27,392 nucleotides of DNA from a virus. The stretch's first letter is position 1; each line of letters begins with the position of its first letter. Position numbers and translations under genes: made by a program. This document shows positions 15,709 to 24,451 of the stretch, in pieces. Under the pieces are notes generated by a model. That model had not been told where the DNA came from and ran no database searches. It saw only the letters and a list, made by a program, of their open reading frames with translations. The stretch is taken from IMG/VR virus record IMGVR_UViG_3300018465_000013, positions 1-27,392 of that record; one strand, 5' to 3'.

Positions 15709-17448
15709 ATGGAATTTGCACTAGCCAACCGAGCGACTCCTCGTTATTATGGAGAGTTTCGTGAGAGGGTTCTTTCTGGTGAAATTCCAGTTAATCGACA
15801 TATTTCCTCCGAAATGAACCGTATTGATGATCTTATTGCGAATCCAAACTTCTACTATGATGAGAATGCTGTTGAAGGATTCATCAAGTATTGCGAAAAC
15901 GAGCTTACACTGACCGATGGTAGTGATCTACATCTTTTAGATAGCTTCAAGATATGGGCCGAACAGATCTTTGGTTGGTATTATTTTGTTGATAGACAGA
16001 TCTATGATCCAGAAACAAAGACATACTCAACAAGAACGATCAAGAAACGTCTTACAACCAAACAGTATCTAATCGTGGCCCGAGGCGCAGCGAAATCTAT
16101 GTATGCGTATTGTGTGCATGCATATTTCTTGAATGTTGATGTCTCAACAACACATCAAATCAACACTGCGCCGACGATGAAACAGGCAGAAGAGGTTCTG
16201 TCACCATTCCGCACCGCGATCACAAGAGCTCGTGGGCCTCTATTCCAGTTCCTCACGGAAGGTTCAGTAAGAAACACCACTGGGCCAGCTGCTCAGCGTC
16301 AGAAACTTGTATCCACCAAGAAGGGTATTGAGAATTTCTTGACTGGTTCTCTTCTTGAAGTTCGTCCTATGACCATTAATAAATTGCAGGGGCTTCGACC
16401 AAAGATCTCTTCTATCGATGAATGGTTGTCTGGAGATATTCGTGAAGATGTTGTTGGTGCGATCGAGCAGGGCGCTTCCAAGATGGATGATTACCTTATC
16501 ATCGCGATCAGTTCTGAGGGAACTGTGCGCAATGGTTCTGGTGACACCATCAAGATGGAGCTTGAAAACATTCTCAAAGGTGAATACGATGCTCCGCATA
16601 TTTCAATCTGGTATTATCGACTGGATGACATCGAAGAGGTAAATGATCCTTCTTCTTGGTTGAAAGCGAATCCAAATCTCGGTAAAACGGTTACGTATGA
16701 TGCTTATCATCTAGATGTTGAGCGAGCTGAGAAAGCTCCCGCCTCTCGTAACGATATTTTGGCGAAGAGGTTTGGTATTCCTATGGAAGGTTACACATAT
16801 TACTTCACATACGAAGAGACCTTGCCTCATCGCCCAAGTGATTTTTCTGGTATGCCCTGTTCTCTTGGTGCTGACCTTTCACAAGGCGACGACTTCTGTG
16901 CCTTTACTTTCTTGTTCCCCCTTGGTAATGGAACATTTGGCATCAAGACTCGAAGTTATATTACAATGCTTACTCTTATGAAGCTTCCCGGCGCGATGCG
17001 AGCCAAGTATCAAGAGTTCATCGATGAAGGTAGCCTTCAGATTATGGAAGGCAACGTTCTGGACACGATGGAGGTCTTTGATGATCTGGACGCTTTCATC
17101 ATCGAAAACAACTGGGATGTTGGTGCGCTTGGCTACGATCCATACAACGCCAAAGAGTTTGTTGAAAGATGGGAAGCTGAAAACGGTCCGTTCGGGATCG
17201 TGAAAGTCATTCAGGGAGTCAAGACAGAGTCTGTTCCTCTTGGTGAACTTAAGATTCTTGCTGAAGAAAGAGCCATCATATTTGATCAATCTCTGATGTC
17301 GTTTGCCATGGGTAACGCGATTACTCTTGAGGACACAAACGGCAACCGTAAGCTTCTAAAAAAGCGAGCAGAAGAAAAGATTGATAACGTTTCTGCTATG
17401 ATGGATGCATGGATTGCTTACAAACTTAACAAGGAAACCTTCGAATAG
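15709..17448 (+). CDS. terL: Terminase large subunit
   Basis: ATG 15709 after SD AAAAGGAGG. The 579-aa protein has an ATPase half with Walker A variant R125-G-A-A-K129-S and Walker B SSID237E238W, plus LRPK and IAISSEG (coupling) elements. The nuclease half has D389 (GADLSQGDD), D477 (GYDPYNA) and D559 (EEKIDNVSAMMDAW), the RNase H-like metal triad. Length is normal for terminases of HK97-like phages. It cuts concatemers and drives DNA into the prohead through the portal. The tag protein and connector precede it; the acidic 77-aa protein and second tag protein follow. Confidence 0.95.
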   Translation: MEFALANRATPRYYGEFRERVLSGEIPVNRHISSEMNRIDDLIANPNFYYDENAVEGFIKYCENELTLTDGSDLHLLDSFKIWAEQIFGWYYFVDRQIYDPETKTYSTRTIKKRLTTKQYLIVARGAAKSMYAYCVHAYFLNVDVSTTHQINTAPTMKQAEEVLSPFRTAITRARGPLFQFLTEGSVRNTTGPAAQRQKLVSTKKGIENFLTGSLLEVRPMTINKLQGLRPKISSIDEWLSGDIREDVVGAIEQGASKMDDYLIIAISSEGTVRNGSGDTIKMELENILKGEYDAPHISIWYYRLDDIEEVNDPSSWLKANPNLGKTVTYDAYHLDVERAEKAPASRNDILAKRFGIPMEGYTYYFTYEETLPHRPSDFSGMPCSLGADLSQGDDFCAFTFLFPLGNGTFGIKTRSYITMLTLMKLPGAMRAKYQEFIDEGSLQIMEGNVLDTMEVFDDLDAFIIENNWDVGALGYDPYNAKEFVERWEAENGPFGIVKVIQGVKTESVPLGELKILAEERAIIFDQSLMSFAMGNAITLEDTNGNRKLLKKRAEEKIDNVSAMMDAWIAYKLNKETFE

Positions 17449-18179: not shown

Positions 18180-19475
18180 TTGGCTATCGGCGACAGGATC
18201 AGAAAGGCATGGAACGCATTTGTTAGTCCTGGGCAAGAAGAATCTGCTGTCGCTTACGGTAACAGCAGCTCATATTCTTCAAGTTCTCCTTCTCGTCAAA
18301 GGCTCGTTGGTTACAATGATCGTTCCATCATTACATCAATCTGTACAAGAATCAGCATTGATGTAGCCGACGTTCTTCTTCGTCATGTCGAACTTGATGA
18401 TCTTGGACGATATTTGAAAGACGTGGATAGTAATCTCAACTCCTGTTTGACTTGGGAAACCAATCTTGATCAAGGACCTCGTGCGTTTAGACAGGACATC
18501 GCGATGACACTTCTTGACCGAGGTGTTGCTGCACTTGTCCCTGTTGACACGACCATCGATCCAAACACAAATGAGATTTTTGACGTCTTTTCTATGCGTG
18601 TAGGTACCGTTTCGCAATGGTATGCTAAACATGTTCGTGTTGATCTATGGAACGAAGATAAAGGAAGACGTCAAGAAGTAACCTTGGAAAAGCGATATGT
18701 TGCTATTGTTGAAAATCCGCTTTACTCGGTTATGAATGGCCCTAATTCAACGTTCCAGCGTCTTATTAGGAAATTGGCGCTTCTTGATGCTGTTGAAGAG
18801 CAGGCTAGTTCTGGAAAGTTGGACATCATTGTTCAGCTACCCTACATGATCAAGTCGGACACAAAGAAAGCGGCTGCAGAGCAGCGTCGTTCTGATATTG
18901 AAATGCAACTAAGAGGTAGTCAGTACGGAATTGCCTATATCGATGGAACTGAAAAGGTCGTTCAGCTCAATCGCCCCGCAGAAAACAACCTTCTCAAAAC
19001 CGTTGAGTATCTTACTAATATGTTGTATGGCCAACTTGGTATTACCGAAGAGGTAATGAATGGTACGGCAGATGAAGCTACGATGCTCAACTATCAGAAT
19101 CGAACGATCAAACCAATCGTCGAGGCAATTGTTGAAGCTATGCAGCGAGCTTTCCTTGGGCCTGCTGGTCAAATGAAGAATCAGCGTGTTCTCTACTTCA
19201 CCGACCCGTTCAAGCTTGTCACTATGAAGGACTTTGCTGAAATTGGTGATAAGCTTACTCGAAATGAGATTGCTACGTCGAATGAGCTTAGAGGATTCAT
19301 TGGTATTCGACCCTCTGCAGATCCTAAGGCAGATGAGCTTGGCAACCCCAACATGCCACAGCCAGGAGCAGTAGTAAACGTTGGAAGAATGCAAGACAAT
19401 ATAGACGTAAACTCTGCTTCGGCTCAAACGAACGGAGCAATTAACCCGGCAGCTAACGGCCGCCGAAACACTTAG
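18180..19475 (+). CDS. Portal protein
   Basis: Start TTG 18180 with SD AAAGGAGGTGATGAT. The 431-aa product has the HK97-type portal layout: an N-terminal region, RSIITSICTRISIDVADV, a stem-like strand-rich middle, GITEEVMNGTADEATMLNYQNRTIKPIVEAI (typical of portal clip/stem helices) and a C-terminal Gln/Asn-rich tail (DVNSASAQTNGAINPAA...). Portals form the dodecameric DNA channel, dock the terminase and later the connector. Neighbours (TerL upstream, protease-capsid fusion downstream) agree. Confidence 0.9.
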   Translation: MAIGDRIRKAWNAFVSPGQEESAVAYGNSSSYSSSSPSRQRLVGYNDRSIITSICTRISIDVADVLLRHVELDDLGRYLKDVDSNLNSCLTWETNLDQGPRAFRQDIAMTLLDRGVAALVPVDTTIDPNTNEIFDVFSMRVGTVSQWYAKHVRVDLWNEDKGRRQEVTLEKRYVAIVENPLYSVMNGPNSTFQRLIRKLALLDAVEEQASSGKLDIIVQLPYMIKSDTKKAAAEQRRSDIEMQLRGSQYGIAYIDGTEKVVQLNRPAENNLLKTVEYLTNMLYGQLGITEEVMNGTADEATMLNYQNRTIKPIVEAIVEAMQRAFLGPAGQMKNQRVLYFTDPFKLVTMKDFAEIGDKLTRNEIATSNELRGFIGIRPSADPKADELGNPNMPQPGAVVNVGRMQDNIDVNSASAQTNGAINPAANGRRNT

Positions 19476-19489
19476 AAAGGAACGTCAAA

Positions 19490-21490
19490 ATGGAATGTGA
19501 TTTCAGCGGCTGGGCAACCAAAGCCAGCGTGCAGTGTAGTGACGGTAGGACCATCATGCCTAATGCTTTCCAGCATCAGGATCGTATGCAGGTTCCTCTC
19601 GTCTGGCAGCATGGACATAAGGATCCGGAGAACGTTCTGGGTCATGTGCTCCTTGAGAATCGTGATGAGGGTGTTTACGCTTACGCTTTCTTCAATGATA
19701 CTCCTAAGGCACAGCATGCCAAGAAGGCAGTCGAGCACAAGGACATCAACCAGATGTCGATCTGGGCGAACAGCCTGGTCGAGCGATCCAAGCGAGTCAT
19801 GCACGGAGCGATTCGTGAGGTCAGCTTGGTTCTGTCTGGTGCGAATCCAGGCGCTATCATTGAAAATGTTACGCTTCGTCACTCTGATGACGGAGAGCTT
19901 GAGATTCTTGAGGATGAGGCAATCATCACCATGGGTCTTGAGCTTGAGCACTCGGACCAGAAGTTCGATGTGATCGATAAGGATGACGCTAATGGCTCTG
20001 ATGACTCTCATCTGACCGAGGACGACGTCAAGGCTCTTATCCAGAGCCAGCTTGACATGGTTCATGCCGAGGATGATGAGACGATTGCGGATGTCTATGA
20101 GTCTATGTCCGATAAGCAGAAAGCAGTTCTTCATTACCTGGTCGGCACGGTCATCGAGTCGCCAGAAATTCAGCAGAGTAATCTTGACGACGATAACAAC
20201 GACCAGAAAGGTTCCGAAATGAAGCACCACAACGTGTTCGAGGATGGTGGAGAAGGTGGCGGCCCCGGGCTTGTTCTTTCCCACGATGACATGAAGGCAA
20301 TCCAGGCTGACGCGACCCGAAACGGTTCTCTCAAGAACGCTGTGGAGGCTTACGCCCTTTCCCACGGCATCGAGGACATCGATCTTCTGTTCCCGGATGC
20401 CAGGGCGGTTGACAACACCCCCGAGCTTATGGGTCGGCGTGTTGAGTGGGTTGCCAAGCTCATGGGCGGGATCAAGAAGAGCCCGTTCTCCCGAATCAAG
20501 ACACTTTCGGCGGACATCACGGTCCCTGAGGCTCGTGCCAAGGGTTACATCAAGGGCACTCTGAAGAAGGAAGAGTTCTTCCGGGTGTCGAAGCGAGTCA
20601 CTGAGCCCACCACGATCTACAAGAAGCAGAAGCTCGACCGTGATGACATGGTCGACATCACTGACTTCGATGTCGTGGCTTGGCTCAAGGCTGAGATGCG
20701 TCTCATGCTTGACGAGGAGGTCGCCCGTGCGATTCTCGTCGGTGATGGTCGCGCCGGGGACGATGAGGACAAGATCAACGAGGAGAAGATTCGTCCGGTC
20801 GCTTCTGACCACGAGCTTTACACCACGACGATCAACGTCAACATCAACGATGCCAACTCCAACATGAGTGAGGTCGCTGACGCGATCGCTCTCAACCGTA
20901 GCGCTCTTCGTGGCTCTGGTCTTCCGACCATGTTCACGACCGAGACCTACATCGCCCGTTATCTCACGCAGCGTGATTCGCTTGGTCGCCGTCTCTACAC
21001 GAGCCTCGATCAGCTTGCCACGGAGCTTCGGGTGGCGGACATCGTCGCGGTTGAGATCCTTGAGGAGTACCCGGACATCGTCGCGATCATCTTCAACCCG
21101 GCTGACTACACGGTTGGTACCACTGCCGGTGGTGAGGTCAGCATGTTCGATGATTTCGACATCGATTACAACCAGCACAAGTACCTCATCGAGGGTCGGA
21201 TGTCTGGCGCGCTCACCAAGCTGAAGTCGGCTCTGGTTGTTCGCAAGGTTGCTGGTACTGACGTGCTTGTGGCTCCCGCTGAGCCGACCTTCGATGGCAC
21301 TGATGTGACCATCGTTGATACGACCAACGTTGTCTACCGTAACGCCGACACGGATGCTGTGATGACTGCTGCTGGCAGCCCGTACACGGTTGCTCCTGGC
21401 GACACGCTCAATGTCCATGCTGAGGCTGCTCCCGGTTACTACCTTGAGTCGAGCATGGTTGACGACTGGAGCTTCACGAACGAGGCGTAA
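19490..21490 (+). CDS. Fused prohead protease and HK97-fold major capsid protein
   Basis: ATG 19490 after SD AGAAAGGAAC. In the 666-aa product: residues ~1-130 are an S78-like protease (WQH41GH, QMS90IW, IREVSLVLSGANPGA); ~131-243 are a highly acidic scaffold/delta-like region; from M244 the capsid begins (MKHHNVFEDGG, then YALSHGIEDIDLLFPDA, VGDGRAGDD and a beta-rich end). The last ~70 residues form an Ig-like add-on similar to the tail tube protein C-terminus. Inferred: autoproteolysis releases the capsid protein, which builds the head. Codons in the capsid half end in C or G far more than in neighbours, a sign of high expression. Confidence 0.9.
   Translation: MECDFSGWATKASVQCSDGRTIMPNAFQHQDRMQVPLVWQHGHKDPENVLGHVLLENRDEGVYAYAFFNDTPKAQHAKKAVEHKDINQMSIWANSLVERSKRVMHGAIREVSLVLSGANPGAIIENVTLRHSDDGELEILEDEAIITMGLELEHSDQKFDVIDKDDANGSDDSHLTEDDVKALIQSQLDMVHAEDDETIADVYESMSDKQKAVLHYLVGTVIESPEIQQSNLDDDNNDQKGSEMKHHNVFEDGGEGGGPGLVLSHDDMKAIQADATRNGSLKNAVEAYALSHGIEDIDLLFPDARAVDNTPELMGRRVEWVAKLMGGIKKSPFSRIKTLSADITVPEARAKGYIKGTLKKEEFFRVSKRVTEPTTIYKKQKLDRDDMVDITDFDVVAWLKAEMRLMLDEEVARAILVGDGRAGDDEDKINEEKIRPVASDHELYTTTINVNINDANSNMSEVADAIALNRSALRGSGLPTMFTTETYIARYLTQRDSLGRRLYTSLDQLATELRVADIVAVEILEEYPDIVAIIFNPADYTVGTTAGGEVSMFDDFDIDYNQHKYLIEGRMSGALTKLKSALVVRKVAGTDVLVAPAEPTFDGTDVTIVDTTNVVYRNADTDAVMTAAGSPYTVAPGDTLNVHAEAAPGYYLESSMVDDWSFTNEA
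20205..20221 (+). promoter_or_regulatory. Possible internal SD and start for free capsid protein
   Basis: AGAAAGG (20205-20211) lies 7 nt before in-frame ATG 20219 (M244), exactly where the capsid-type sequence MKHHNVFE begins. The same AGAAAGG core serves as SD for genes at 6277, 11608, 12260, 14184 and 19490. An internal start would give a 423-aa capsid protein without protease. It may also be chance, as capsid can be released by proteolysis. Confidence 0.45.
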
Positions 21491-21505
21491 CATTAAGGAG
21501 TTAAG

Positions 21506-21859
21506 ATGGCGCGGTTCCACGGAGAAGTTGGTTATGGCAAATCTGTAGAATCACCTCCCGATTCAGGTAAATGGATCGATGAGATTACAGAGAAAGCCTA
21601 TACCGGCGACGTTATTCGTAACACAAGAAGCTTAGAAGCTTCTGGTGAGAAACTTAATGATGATATTTCATTAGGTAACTCTATTAGTGTCGTGGCCGAT
21701 CAATACGCCATCGAAAACTACGCCTTTATCAAGTATGTGAGGTGGGACGGGGTTCTCTGGAGAGTGACTAATGTCGAAGTTCGGAGGCCCCGTCTCATCT
21801 TGAGTTTTGGAGGAGTTTACAATGGTCAGGTAGCTTTACAAACAGATCCAGGGGTGTGA
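21506..21859 (+). CDS. Head closure (stopper) protein
   Basis: ATG 21506 after SD TAAGGAGTTAAG. The 117-aa product has the pattern MARFHGEVGYG...WIDEITEKAYTGDVIRNTRSL...DDISLGNSISVVADQYA...YVRWDGVLWRVTNVEVRRPRLIL split here at its ellipses, which I know from head-closure/stopper-like proteins in phages of Gram-positive hosts. It would bind below the connector to seal the portal after packaging. It ends just before the tail terminator gene. Confidence 0.75.
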   Translation: MARFHGEVGYGKSVESPPDSGKWIDEITEKAYTGDVIRNTRSLEASGEKLNDDISLGNSISVVADQYAIENYAFIKYVRWDGVLWRVTNVEVRRPRLILSFGGVYNGQVALQTDPGV

Positions 21860-21860
21860 T

Positions 21861-22172
21861 ATGGGAACTAGAATGGAACTTCACACTCTTCTGTTGAGTT
21901 TGCTTCCGACTAATAGTAAACATGTATATTTTCAACCACCTCCTGATCTGCAGATGAGCTATCCGTGTATTGTCTACAATCGAGATGATATTCGAACTGC
22001 TTATGCAGACAATATTCCATACAAGAGGAAGAAACGTTATCAGGTGACGGTCATTGATCCTGATCCTGATAGCGATATTCCTGATAAAGTAGCGGAGCTT
22101 CCTTTGTGTTCCTTCGATCGCCATTTTACGGCCGATAACCTCAATCACGACGTATACAACCTTTACTTTTAA
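21861..22172 (+). CDS. Tail terminator / tail completion protein
   Basis: ATG 21861, only 1 nt after the preceding stop; AGGGGTGTG in the end of that gene may serve as SD. The 103-aa product contains VYFQPPPDLQMSYPCIVY and KKRYQVTVIDPDPDS, followed by FDRHFTADNLNHDVYNLYF (19 residues), the set of motifs of tail-terminator-like proteins of siphophages, which form a ring at the top of the tail and set its end. Context between head closure and tail tube fits exactly. Confidence 0.75.
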   Translation: MGTRMELHTLLLSLLPTNSKHVYFQPPPDLQMSYPCIVYNRDDIRTAYADNIPYKRKKRYQVTVIDPDPDSDIPDKVAELPLCSFDRHFTADNLNHDVYNLYF

Positions 22173-22184
22173 AAGGAGAATTCA

Positions 22185-23060
22185 ATGGTTAAACTCGCTT
22201 GGGACGAGGTCGGTACTCGAAAGTTCGAGACCGGCGTCGATCACGGCGTTCTCTACCTGCCTGATGGAGGGGGTGTTTACAGTGACGGTGTTCCTTGGAA
22301 CGGTCTTGTAAGCGTCACCGAGTCTCCGGCCGGTGCAGAACCGAACCCGCAGTATGCCGACAACATCAAGTACCTGAACCTCATCTCGGCAGAGGACTTT
22401 GCAGGTACGCTTGAGGCTTTCACCTACCCCGATGAGTTCCAGGAGTTCGATGGCCTCTCGGTCCCCGTGCCTGGTGTTACCGTTGGTCAGCAGCGTCGGA
22501 AGTCCTTTGGTCTTTCGTATCGTTCGAGGCTTGGTAACGATCTTGAGGGTGATTCCTACGGTTACAAGCTTCATCTTGTCTATGGCTGCACAGCTAAGCC
22601 CTCTGAGAAGGCTTACACCAGCGTCAACGACTCGCCTGAGGCCATCACCTTCAGCTATGAGCTTGCCACTACCCCGGTGTCTGTCGGAGGCGGCCTTCGC
22701 CCGACCTCTATTCTCACGATTGACTCCACCAAGGTCGATGCTACTGCTCTTGCTGCTCTTGAGGACCTTCTCTATGGTACGGCTGGCTCTAACCCGTCAC
22801 TGCCGACCCCCGATGCGGTCATCGCTCTCTTCAGTGGCACTATCACTGAGGTTGAAACCGAGGCTCCGACTTACAATGCCGCTACTGACATCATCACCAT
22901 TCCGGCCACGGTTGGTGTTGAGTACCTCGTTGATGGCGAGGTTGTCGCGGCGGGTCCGTATGGTCCCATCACTGAGGATACTGTCGTCACGGCTCGTCCG
23001 GCGGCTGGATACTCGTTCACTGAGACTTCTGACAGCGACTGGACCATTAACTTCGCTTAA
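22185..23060 (+). CDS. Major tail tube protein with Ig-like C-terminal domain
   Basis: ATG 22185 after SD AAAAGGAGAA. The 291 residues open with WDEVGTRKFETGVDHGVLYLPDG (first 20 only needed), a tube-protein pattern; then YPDEFQEFDGL, FGLSYRSRLGND, YGYKLHLVYG and LTIDSTKVD. After ~220 there is a ~65-residue Ig-like extension (EAPTYNAATDIITIPATVG, PAAGY, DWTINFA) resembling the end of the major capsid protein. C/G-ending codons are frequent, as in the capsid gene, which agrees with a very abundant product. A second paralogue follows the chaperone. Confidence 0.85.
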   Translation: MVKLAWDEVGTRKFETGVDHGVLYLPDGGGVYSDGVPWNGLVSVTESPAGAEPNPQYADNIKYLNLISAEDFAGTLEAFTYPDEFQEFDGLSVPVPGVTVGQQRRKSFGLSYRSRLGNDLEGDSYGYKLHLVYGCTAKPSEKAYTSVNDSPEAITFSYELATTPVSVGGGLRPTSILTIDSTKVDATALAALEDLLYGTAGSNPSLPTPDAVIALFSGTITEVETEAPTYNAATDIITIPATVGVEYLVDGEVVAAGPYGPITEDTVVTARPAAGYSFTETSDSDWTINFA

Positions 23061-23641: not shown

Positions 23642-24451
23642 ATGGCGCCAATTGTTTGGGATGAAGTTGGAAGTCGAGTCTATCAAACAGGTTTGGACCG
23701 GGGTGTCTTGTATCTTCCTGATGGATCGGCTGTTCCATGGAATGGATTAGTCGAAGTAGTCGAGAAATCTTCAAAGGAATCAATTCCTGTTTACTATGAT
23801 GGCGTCAAAATCAATGACATAATCATTCCAGGACCTTTTATCGGAAACATGAAAGCACTTACTTATCCTGATGAGTTTTCTGAACTTGAAGGTCTTAGTT
23901 CTATCTCTCTTGGGCTATATGTTGGCGAACAAAGGCCACAAATCTTCGGTCTATCATATAGAACTAGGATTGGTAGCGATTTAGATGAGAATCTTGGTTA
24001 TAAGATTCATATTCTATACAATGTAAGTGCTGTTCCAACAGATAAGAACAATTCGACAAACACTGAGAATGCAAGTCTCTCTGAGTTTGAGTGGGATATT
24101 TCAGCTATCCCTGAAGAAACAACCGGGTTTCGTCCAACAGCACATGTTATCATTGATTCACGTTATATGGACCCATCTCAATTGTTAGAGATCGAGAATA
24201 ATCTGTATGGAACAGAATTCTCAGATGGTACTCTTATTCCTCTTGCGGACTTTGTCAATTACCTTTACTTCGGGTATCGGTGGAAGATCACTGACAATGG
24301 AGATGGAACTTGGACTGCGAACACCCCCATTGAGATTCTTCTTAGTTTTGATCCTCTTGATCCTGATCTGTTCACTCTTGATCAAATTAATGCGTCATAT
24401 TTGACACCTGATGTGTATCAGATCTCCGACACGTTTACTGATGACCCATGA
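23642..24451 (+). CDS. Second tail tube-like protein (paralogue)
   Basis: ATG 23642 with SD AAAGGAGGATC. The 269-aa product aligns from its first residues with the tube protein at 22185 (WDEVGSRVYQTGLDRGVLYLP, YPDEFSELEGLS, FGLSYRTRIGSD, YKIHILYN, VIIDSRYMD), so they are clear paralogues, but the C-terminal domain is different (WKITDNGDGTWTANT). AT-rich codons suggest lower expression than the first copy. Inferred: a minor tube, tail-tip initiator or adaptor ring rather than the bulk tube. The stop overlaps the next ATG by 4 nt. Confidence 0.8.
   Translation: MAPIVWDEVGSRVYQTGLDRGVLYLPDGSAVPWNGLVEVVEKSSKESIPVYYDGVKINDIIIPGPFIGNMKALTYPDEFSELEGLSSISLGLYVGEQRPQIFGLSYRTRIGSDLDENLGYKIHILYNVSAVPTDKNNSTNTENASLSEFEWDISAIPEETTGFRPTAHVIIDSRYMDPSQLLEIENNLYGTEFSDGTLIPLADFVNYLYFGYRWKITDNGDGTWTANTPIEILLSFDPLDPDLFTLDQINASYLTPDVYQISDTFTDDP

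Follow-up and report, generated by a model that had tools for sequence, protein, structure and literature searches.

The last ~66-70 residues of the major capsid protein and of the first of two major tail proteins of the phage studied here are homologous, and both C-termini belong to one small all-beta domain family that has long been resident on both genes of this phage lineage. By analogy with mycobacteriophage Douge, a role in adhesion is plausible for the domain pair. Accessory sandwich domains on phage structural proteins, even in head and tail pairs, are already known; in the open literature that we searched, we found no description of this domain family, of its actinophage-wide pairing or of its kinship to repeats in host proteins, and an earlier mention is possible.

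Homology of the capsid and tail protein C-termini

The window, by which we mean the whole stretch of DNA that was analysed, comprises 27,392 bases of a virus record, and its right half is a siphophage head-tail operon. The nearest named relatives of this phage have Streptomyces, Arthrobacter, Gordonia, Rhodococcus, Microbacterium and Curtobacterium as hosts, and more distant relatives have Lactococcus hosts. The relevant features, in window coordinates, are:

15709-17448, terminase large subunit
18180-19475, portal
19490..21490, plus strand, fusion of prohead protease and major capsid protein, 666 aa (phrog_3270; N-terminal Peptidase_S78)
about 21266..21487, plus strand, C-terminal domain of the capsid protein, ~70 aa, predicted to lie at the surface (modelled with pLDDT 95.8)
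21506..21859, plus strand, DUF7253 / phrog_4270 protein, between the capsid and tail genes
21861..22172, plus strand, tail terminator (phrog_78)
22185..23060, plus strand, major tail (tube) protein 1, 291 aa (phrog_2645; core at about residues 1-222)
about 22851..23057, plus strand, C-terminal domain of tail protein 1, homologous to that of the capsid protein and likewise predicted to lie at the surface
23642..24451, plus strand, major tail protein 2 (phrog_2645), with the domain absent and a different C-terminal extension of ~50 aa
after tail protein 2 and before the tape measure gene, phrog_5 connector protein
running off the window end, tape measure protein

The G+C content is 55-59% in the capsid and tail genes (19490-23057) as compared to 45% for the whole window. 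A 682-aa open frame also lies antisense to the capsid gene (19472-21520, minus strand) and is probably a by-product of codon usage.

In both proteins the domain comes after a recognizable core. For the capsid protein the phrog_3270 match covers residues 2-619 of 666, and the core that can be aligned by BLASTP stops near residue 592, with the domain following it. The core of tail protein 1 was confirmed to have a standard tail-tube fold (Z up to 11.8, over residues 12-182), and its domain starts at about residue 223. The phrog_2645 profile matched tail protein 1 at E 1.4e-111 and tail protein 2 at E 3.4e-69, the latter being 43% identical to the core of the former. As a preliminary description of this DNA had stated, the domain is absent from the second tube-like protein, whose C-terminus is formed by a different conserved piece of ~50 aa (ITDNGDGTWTA...DEDTYTISS). 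The same piece closes many homologues of tail protein 2, and in some relatives copies of the tail protein are fused to long extensions, as in DizzyRudy gp19 and Sporto gp19.

The relationship between the two termini had originally been proposed from short motifs, all of which are present at their respective ends (PYTVAPGDTL, APGY and DDWSF on the capsid protein; PYGPITEDTV, AAGY and SDWTI on tail protein 1). Since the identity of the window pair is low (27% in a multiple alignment), the pair alone is weak evidence; Smith-Waterman alignment of the two termini gave a score of 60 against a mean of 30.6 (sd 6.0) for shuffled sequences, 3 of 5000 of which reached 60. We also used gene position, rather than any similarity between the two sets, to gather C-terminal tails of the capsid and tail proteins of relatives. 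Alignment of 21 capsid tails with 25 tail-protein tails by hhalign returned a probability of 99.6 (E 3.3e-24) over 65 columns, and the common pattern is roughly PT[FY]...T..[VI]TIP...GV.Y....G.....G.....T.V.A.PA.GY.F....D.W.F. Similarly, when the capsid domain model was compared to models of viral proteins, Arthrobacter phage Qui supplied the best match through its major tail protein, the C-terminus of which bears the domain (TM 0.76 normalized by query length, 27% identity, rmsd 1.6 A; Foldseek E 0.045). This match stood clear of the remaining viral-model matches by both TM and rmsd. Outside the two termini, BLASTP of the window capsid protein against tail protein 1 found no meaningful similarity. 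The proposal that two otherwise unrelated proteins end in a related domain is thus borne out by both profile and structural comparison.

Distribution and inheritance of the domain

Distribution was counted over 206 distinct loci in which the capsid and tail protein genes are both present. The domain was found on both proteins in 150 loci, on the capsid protein only in 20, on the tail protein only in 2 and on neither in 34, and it recurs in phages of Arthrobacter, Streptomyces, Gordonia, Rhodococcus, Microbacterium and Curtobacterium. A consensus of the tail domain matched 219 phage records, and among the matches listed all fell within capsid or tail genes. Similarly, when the tail-domain profile was run against 35 longer phage records, in which frames were assigned by size and spacing and not by gene-by-gene annotation, all matches lay in frames whose size fits a capsid or tail protein. 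Across the phage records searched, the domain is confined to the capsid and tail proteins. A few tail proteins carry two copies of it, and in some uncultured relatives with the same cores the tail protein alone bears a beta-rich tail of another kind.

The two copies differ in how steadily they are kept. On a tree of both cores (108 rows) the capsid domain requires ~5 changes and the tail domain ~15. For example, a sister of the window phage (L105, 74% identical) has the domain on the capsid protein and not on the tail protein. The tail domain is likewise missing from Makai, MediumFry and Giantsbane and is present in Ingrid and Breylor17; Streptomyces phages Psst1 and IceWarrior and Arthrobacter phage Mudcat have both domains. 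Given these ~15 changes, and an absence that extends even to the sister of the window phage, the tail copy is dispensable. Where the tail copy is missing, the 900 nt that follow were searched by HMM in three frames, and no convincing remnant of a frameshift-encoded domain was revealed.

The preliminary description had further called the domain a mobile module, which proved to be mostly wrong. The domains sort by gene: the nearest neighbour of a domain lies on the same protein type (96% and 99%), and a domain tree of 76 rows, few forks of which are well supported, requires 5-6 label changes as compared to ~25 expected by chance. The identity of capsid and tail domains within the same phage (0.385) equals that between close relatives (0.386), which rules out that the genes underwent recent spread of the domain or gene conversion. 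Given this sorting by gene, the lack of extra similarity within a phage and the rarity of changes on the capsid protein, mobility is a poor summary of this history, as is also indicated by the restriction of the domain to two protein sizes. Rather, there are two old copies that are mostly inherited vertically, the tail copy being often lost or regained. Occasional exchange between the two genes is nevertheless probable, since ~32 capsid domains, largely from a branch of the Arthrobacter/Microbacterium/Curtobacterium type, score higher with the tail-type profile, and the tail proteins of loci L009 and L011 carry a capsid-type domain. The capsid protein of these two loci ends in a proline-rich PNERQS tail in place of the domain. 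Both copies diverge faster than the cores of the proteins that carry them, with mean identities of 0.43 for the domain versus 0.56 for the core in the capsid protein, and of 0.47 versus 0.62 in the tail protein.

Fold and proposed role of the domain

No solved structure was found for a sequence relative of the capsid protein, the tail protein or the domain. Among 46 members of the family there was no Pfam match to Big_1 or Big_2, with Big_2 sought up to E 0.5. Classical Big_2 (PF02368) was ruled out on this basis, as the control domains of mycobacteriophage Douge and Lactococcus phage P092 matched it at E 1e-7 to 3e-12. The sole recurrent, weak Pfam match was Flg_new_2 (PF18998, a divergent InlB B-repeat), to which about half of the domains show partial similarity. 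The two window domains scored 13.6 and 17.1 bits against it, below the curated cut-off of 23.6, and of ten capsid domains scanned singly one passed (25.1 bits). InlB B-repeats were not among the best 50 matches of the fold search, which is no evidence against a relation, and the domain may yet prove to be a distant relative of Flg_new_2. The closest solved folds were FN3, PKD and Ig-like sandwiches, including surface glycan-binding proteins, at Z 4-5.5. The best of these was an FN3 domain (Z 5.5), and the C-terminal domain of lambda gpV (2l04) matched weakly at Z 4.2; all lie below 8, in a range where unrelated sandwiches tie. Foldseek gave no match at E <= 0.001. The earlier label of Ig-like therefore holds for the loose shape of the predicted beta sandwich and assigns no family.

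Several phages offer a comparison. Like the window phage, Douge (cluster L4; MCP gp8, tail tube gp13) is an actinobacterial siphophage with a C-terminal domain on both proteins, and its own two domains are mutually homologous (51% identity, E 9e-18). Unlike those of the window, they are Big_2 domains that the profile of the window family does not detect; Douge also has a separate MCP of 382 aa with no protease fusion, and only a single annotated major tail protein in the stretch covered. Both Douge domains project outward, and in recombinant form they bind M. smegmatis cells, LAM/AM and alpha-glucan (PMC13033339). Phage P092 (L058), a distant relative within the same group of phages, shares the protease-MCP fusion and tail protein families with the window phage and has a domain at both C-termini, but this is Big_2 in both places (E 4e-12 and 3e-12). 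In lambda gpV, T5 pb6, YSD1 and SPP1 gp17.1*, an accessory beta-sandwich likewise follows the tube core and is exposed on the tube, protruding outward in T5, lambda and YSD1 (PMC8718954). Unlike the window domain, these belong to the Big_2, Big_1 or FN3 families, and the comparison involves the tail protein alone.

We favor, with a probability of roughly 0.55, a reading in which one old all-beta family sits on both genes, projects outward and serves weak, multivalent adhesion to the host surface. Judging from the position of the domains and from the solved tubes of other phages, one domain would project from each capsid subunit and six from each tube ring. Through many weak contacts, they would together keep the virion on the host envelope, attached to a polymer of the cell wall or capsule, before the receptor is located by the tail tip; the tail copy would be accessory. 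The function is suggested by analogy, given that the Douge domains are of a different family. The frequent absence of the tail copy speaks against this reading insofar as the domain on the tail cannot be essential.

The main rival, which we consider unlikely, is that the domain is mainly structural, bracing capsid subunits and, in the manner of lambda, tube rings so as to stabilize the virion, with surface binding being incidental. Indeed, the stability of the capsid copy (~5 changes, as opposed to 15 in the tail copy) could equally be a sign of such a role; the Douge capsid domain takes part in subunit contacts within the capsomere (PMC13033339), and the lambda tail domain adds contacts, its removal lowering activity 100-fold (PMC8718954). 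However, many relatives with the same capsid core do without the domain altogether (34 of 206 loci have it on neither protein), the tail copy is frequently missing, and divergence is faster in the domain than in the core. The domain could also be an add-on of neutral or slightly beneficial effect, kept by inertia and having no specific ligand. This would fit the repeated loss or gain on the tail protein and has a precedent in the FN3 domain of the SPP1 tail, which is dispensable (PMC8718954). That diverged phages from six host genera have all kept the domain on the capsid protein, with core residues conserved, makes this rather improbable.

Host repeat proteins and the wider setting

Relatives of the domain are also encoded by bacteria. 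The plasmid search matched one protein only; a Kocuria plasmid protein whose N-terminus resembles a signal peptide has four copies of a homologue of the phage domain in tandem. No bacterial relative emerged when bacterial genomes were scanned with the tail-domain consensus, and four did when the Kocuria repeat served as the seed, including Arthrobacter and Pseudarthrobacter proteins; Arthrobacter is also a host genus of the phages that carry the domain. The repeat proteins of the Arthrobacter family and Kocuria, with 4-14 tandem copies, lie at:

L306:1-4104
L307:3-3563
L064:2325-4403

In one Arthrobacter-family protein, S-layer homology domains come after 14 tandem copies, and others contain FG-GAP or beta-helix domains. 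From these co-occurring domains we infer that these Arthrobacter-family proteins are exported, their N-termini lying outside the loci sampled. No Pfam family fits the repeat well. The phage domains are homologous to the tandem repeats of these large host proteins, with a modest similarity of 22-40 bits per repeat. Unlike the phage domains, the repeats are part of bacterial, multi-domain proteins, and in the 76-row domain tree they form a clade of their own.

This kinship allows two further readings. It is quite unlikely, in our estimate, that one domain family coats head and tail group-wide as the same module found in host surface repeats, in which case the virion would engage the wall ligand of those proteins, or the proteins themselves. 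Disguise, in which the phage copies a host surface-repeat module to reduce recognition or to make homotypic contacts with host adhesins, draws on the homologous tandem repeats in Arthrobacter, Pseudarthrobacter and Kocuria proteins, one of them with S-layer homology domains, but is very unlikely given the separate clade of the host repeats, their modest similarity and the empty scan with the tail-domain consensus itself.

Whichever role the domain plays, the same accessory domain on head and tail emerges as a recurrent solution, reached with Big_2 in Douge and P092 and with a different family in the phage group of the window. Among the relatives the domain occurs on both proteins, on the capsid protein only, on the tail protein only or on neither, a naturally occurring series that includes the sister phage without a tail copy. 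The purpose of accessory phage surface domains is thereby made directly testable.
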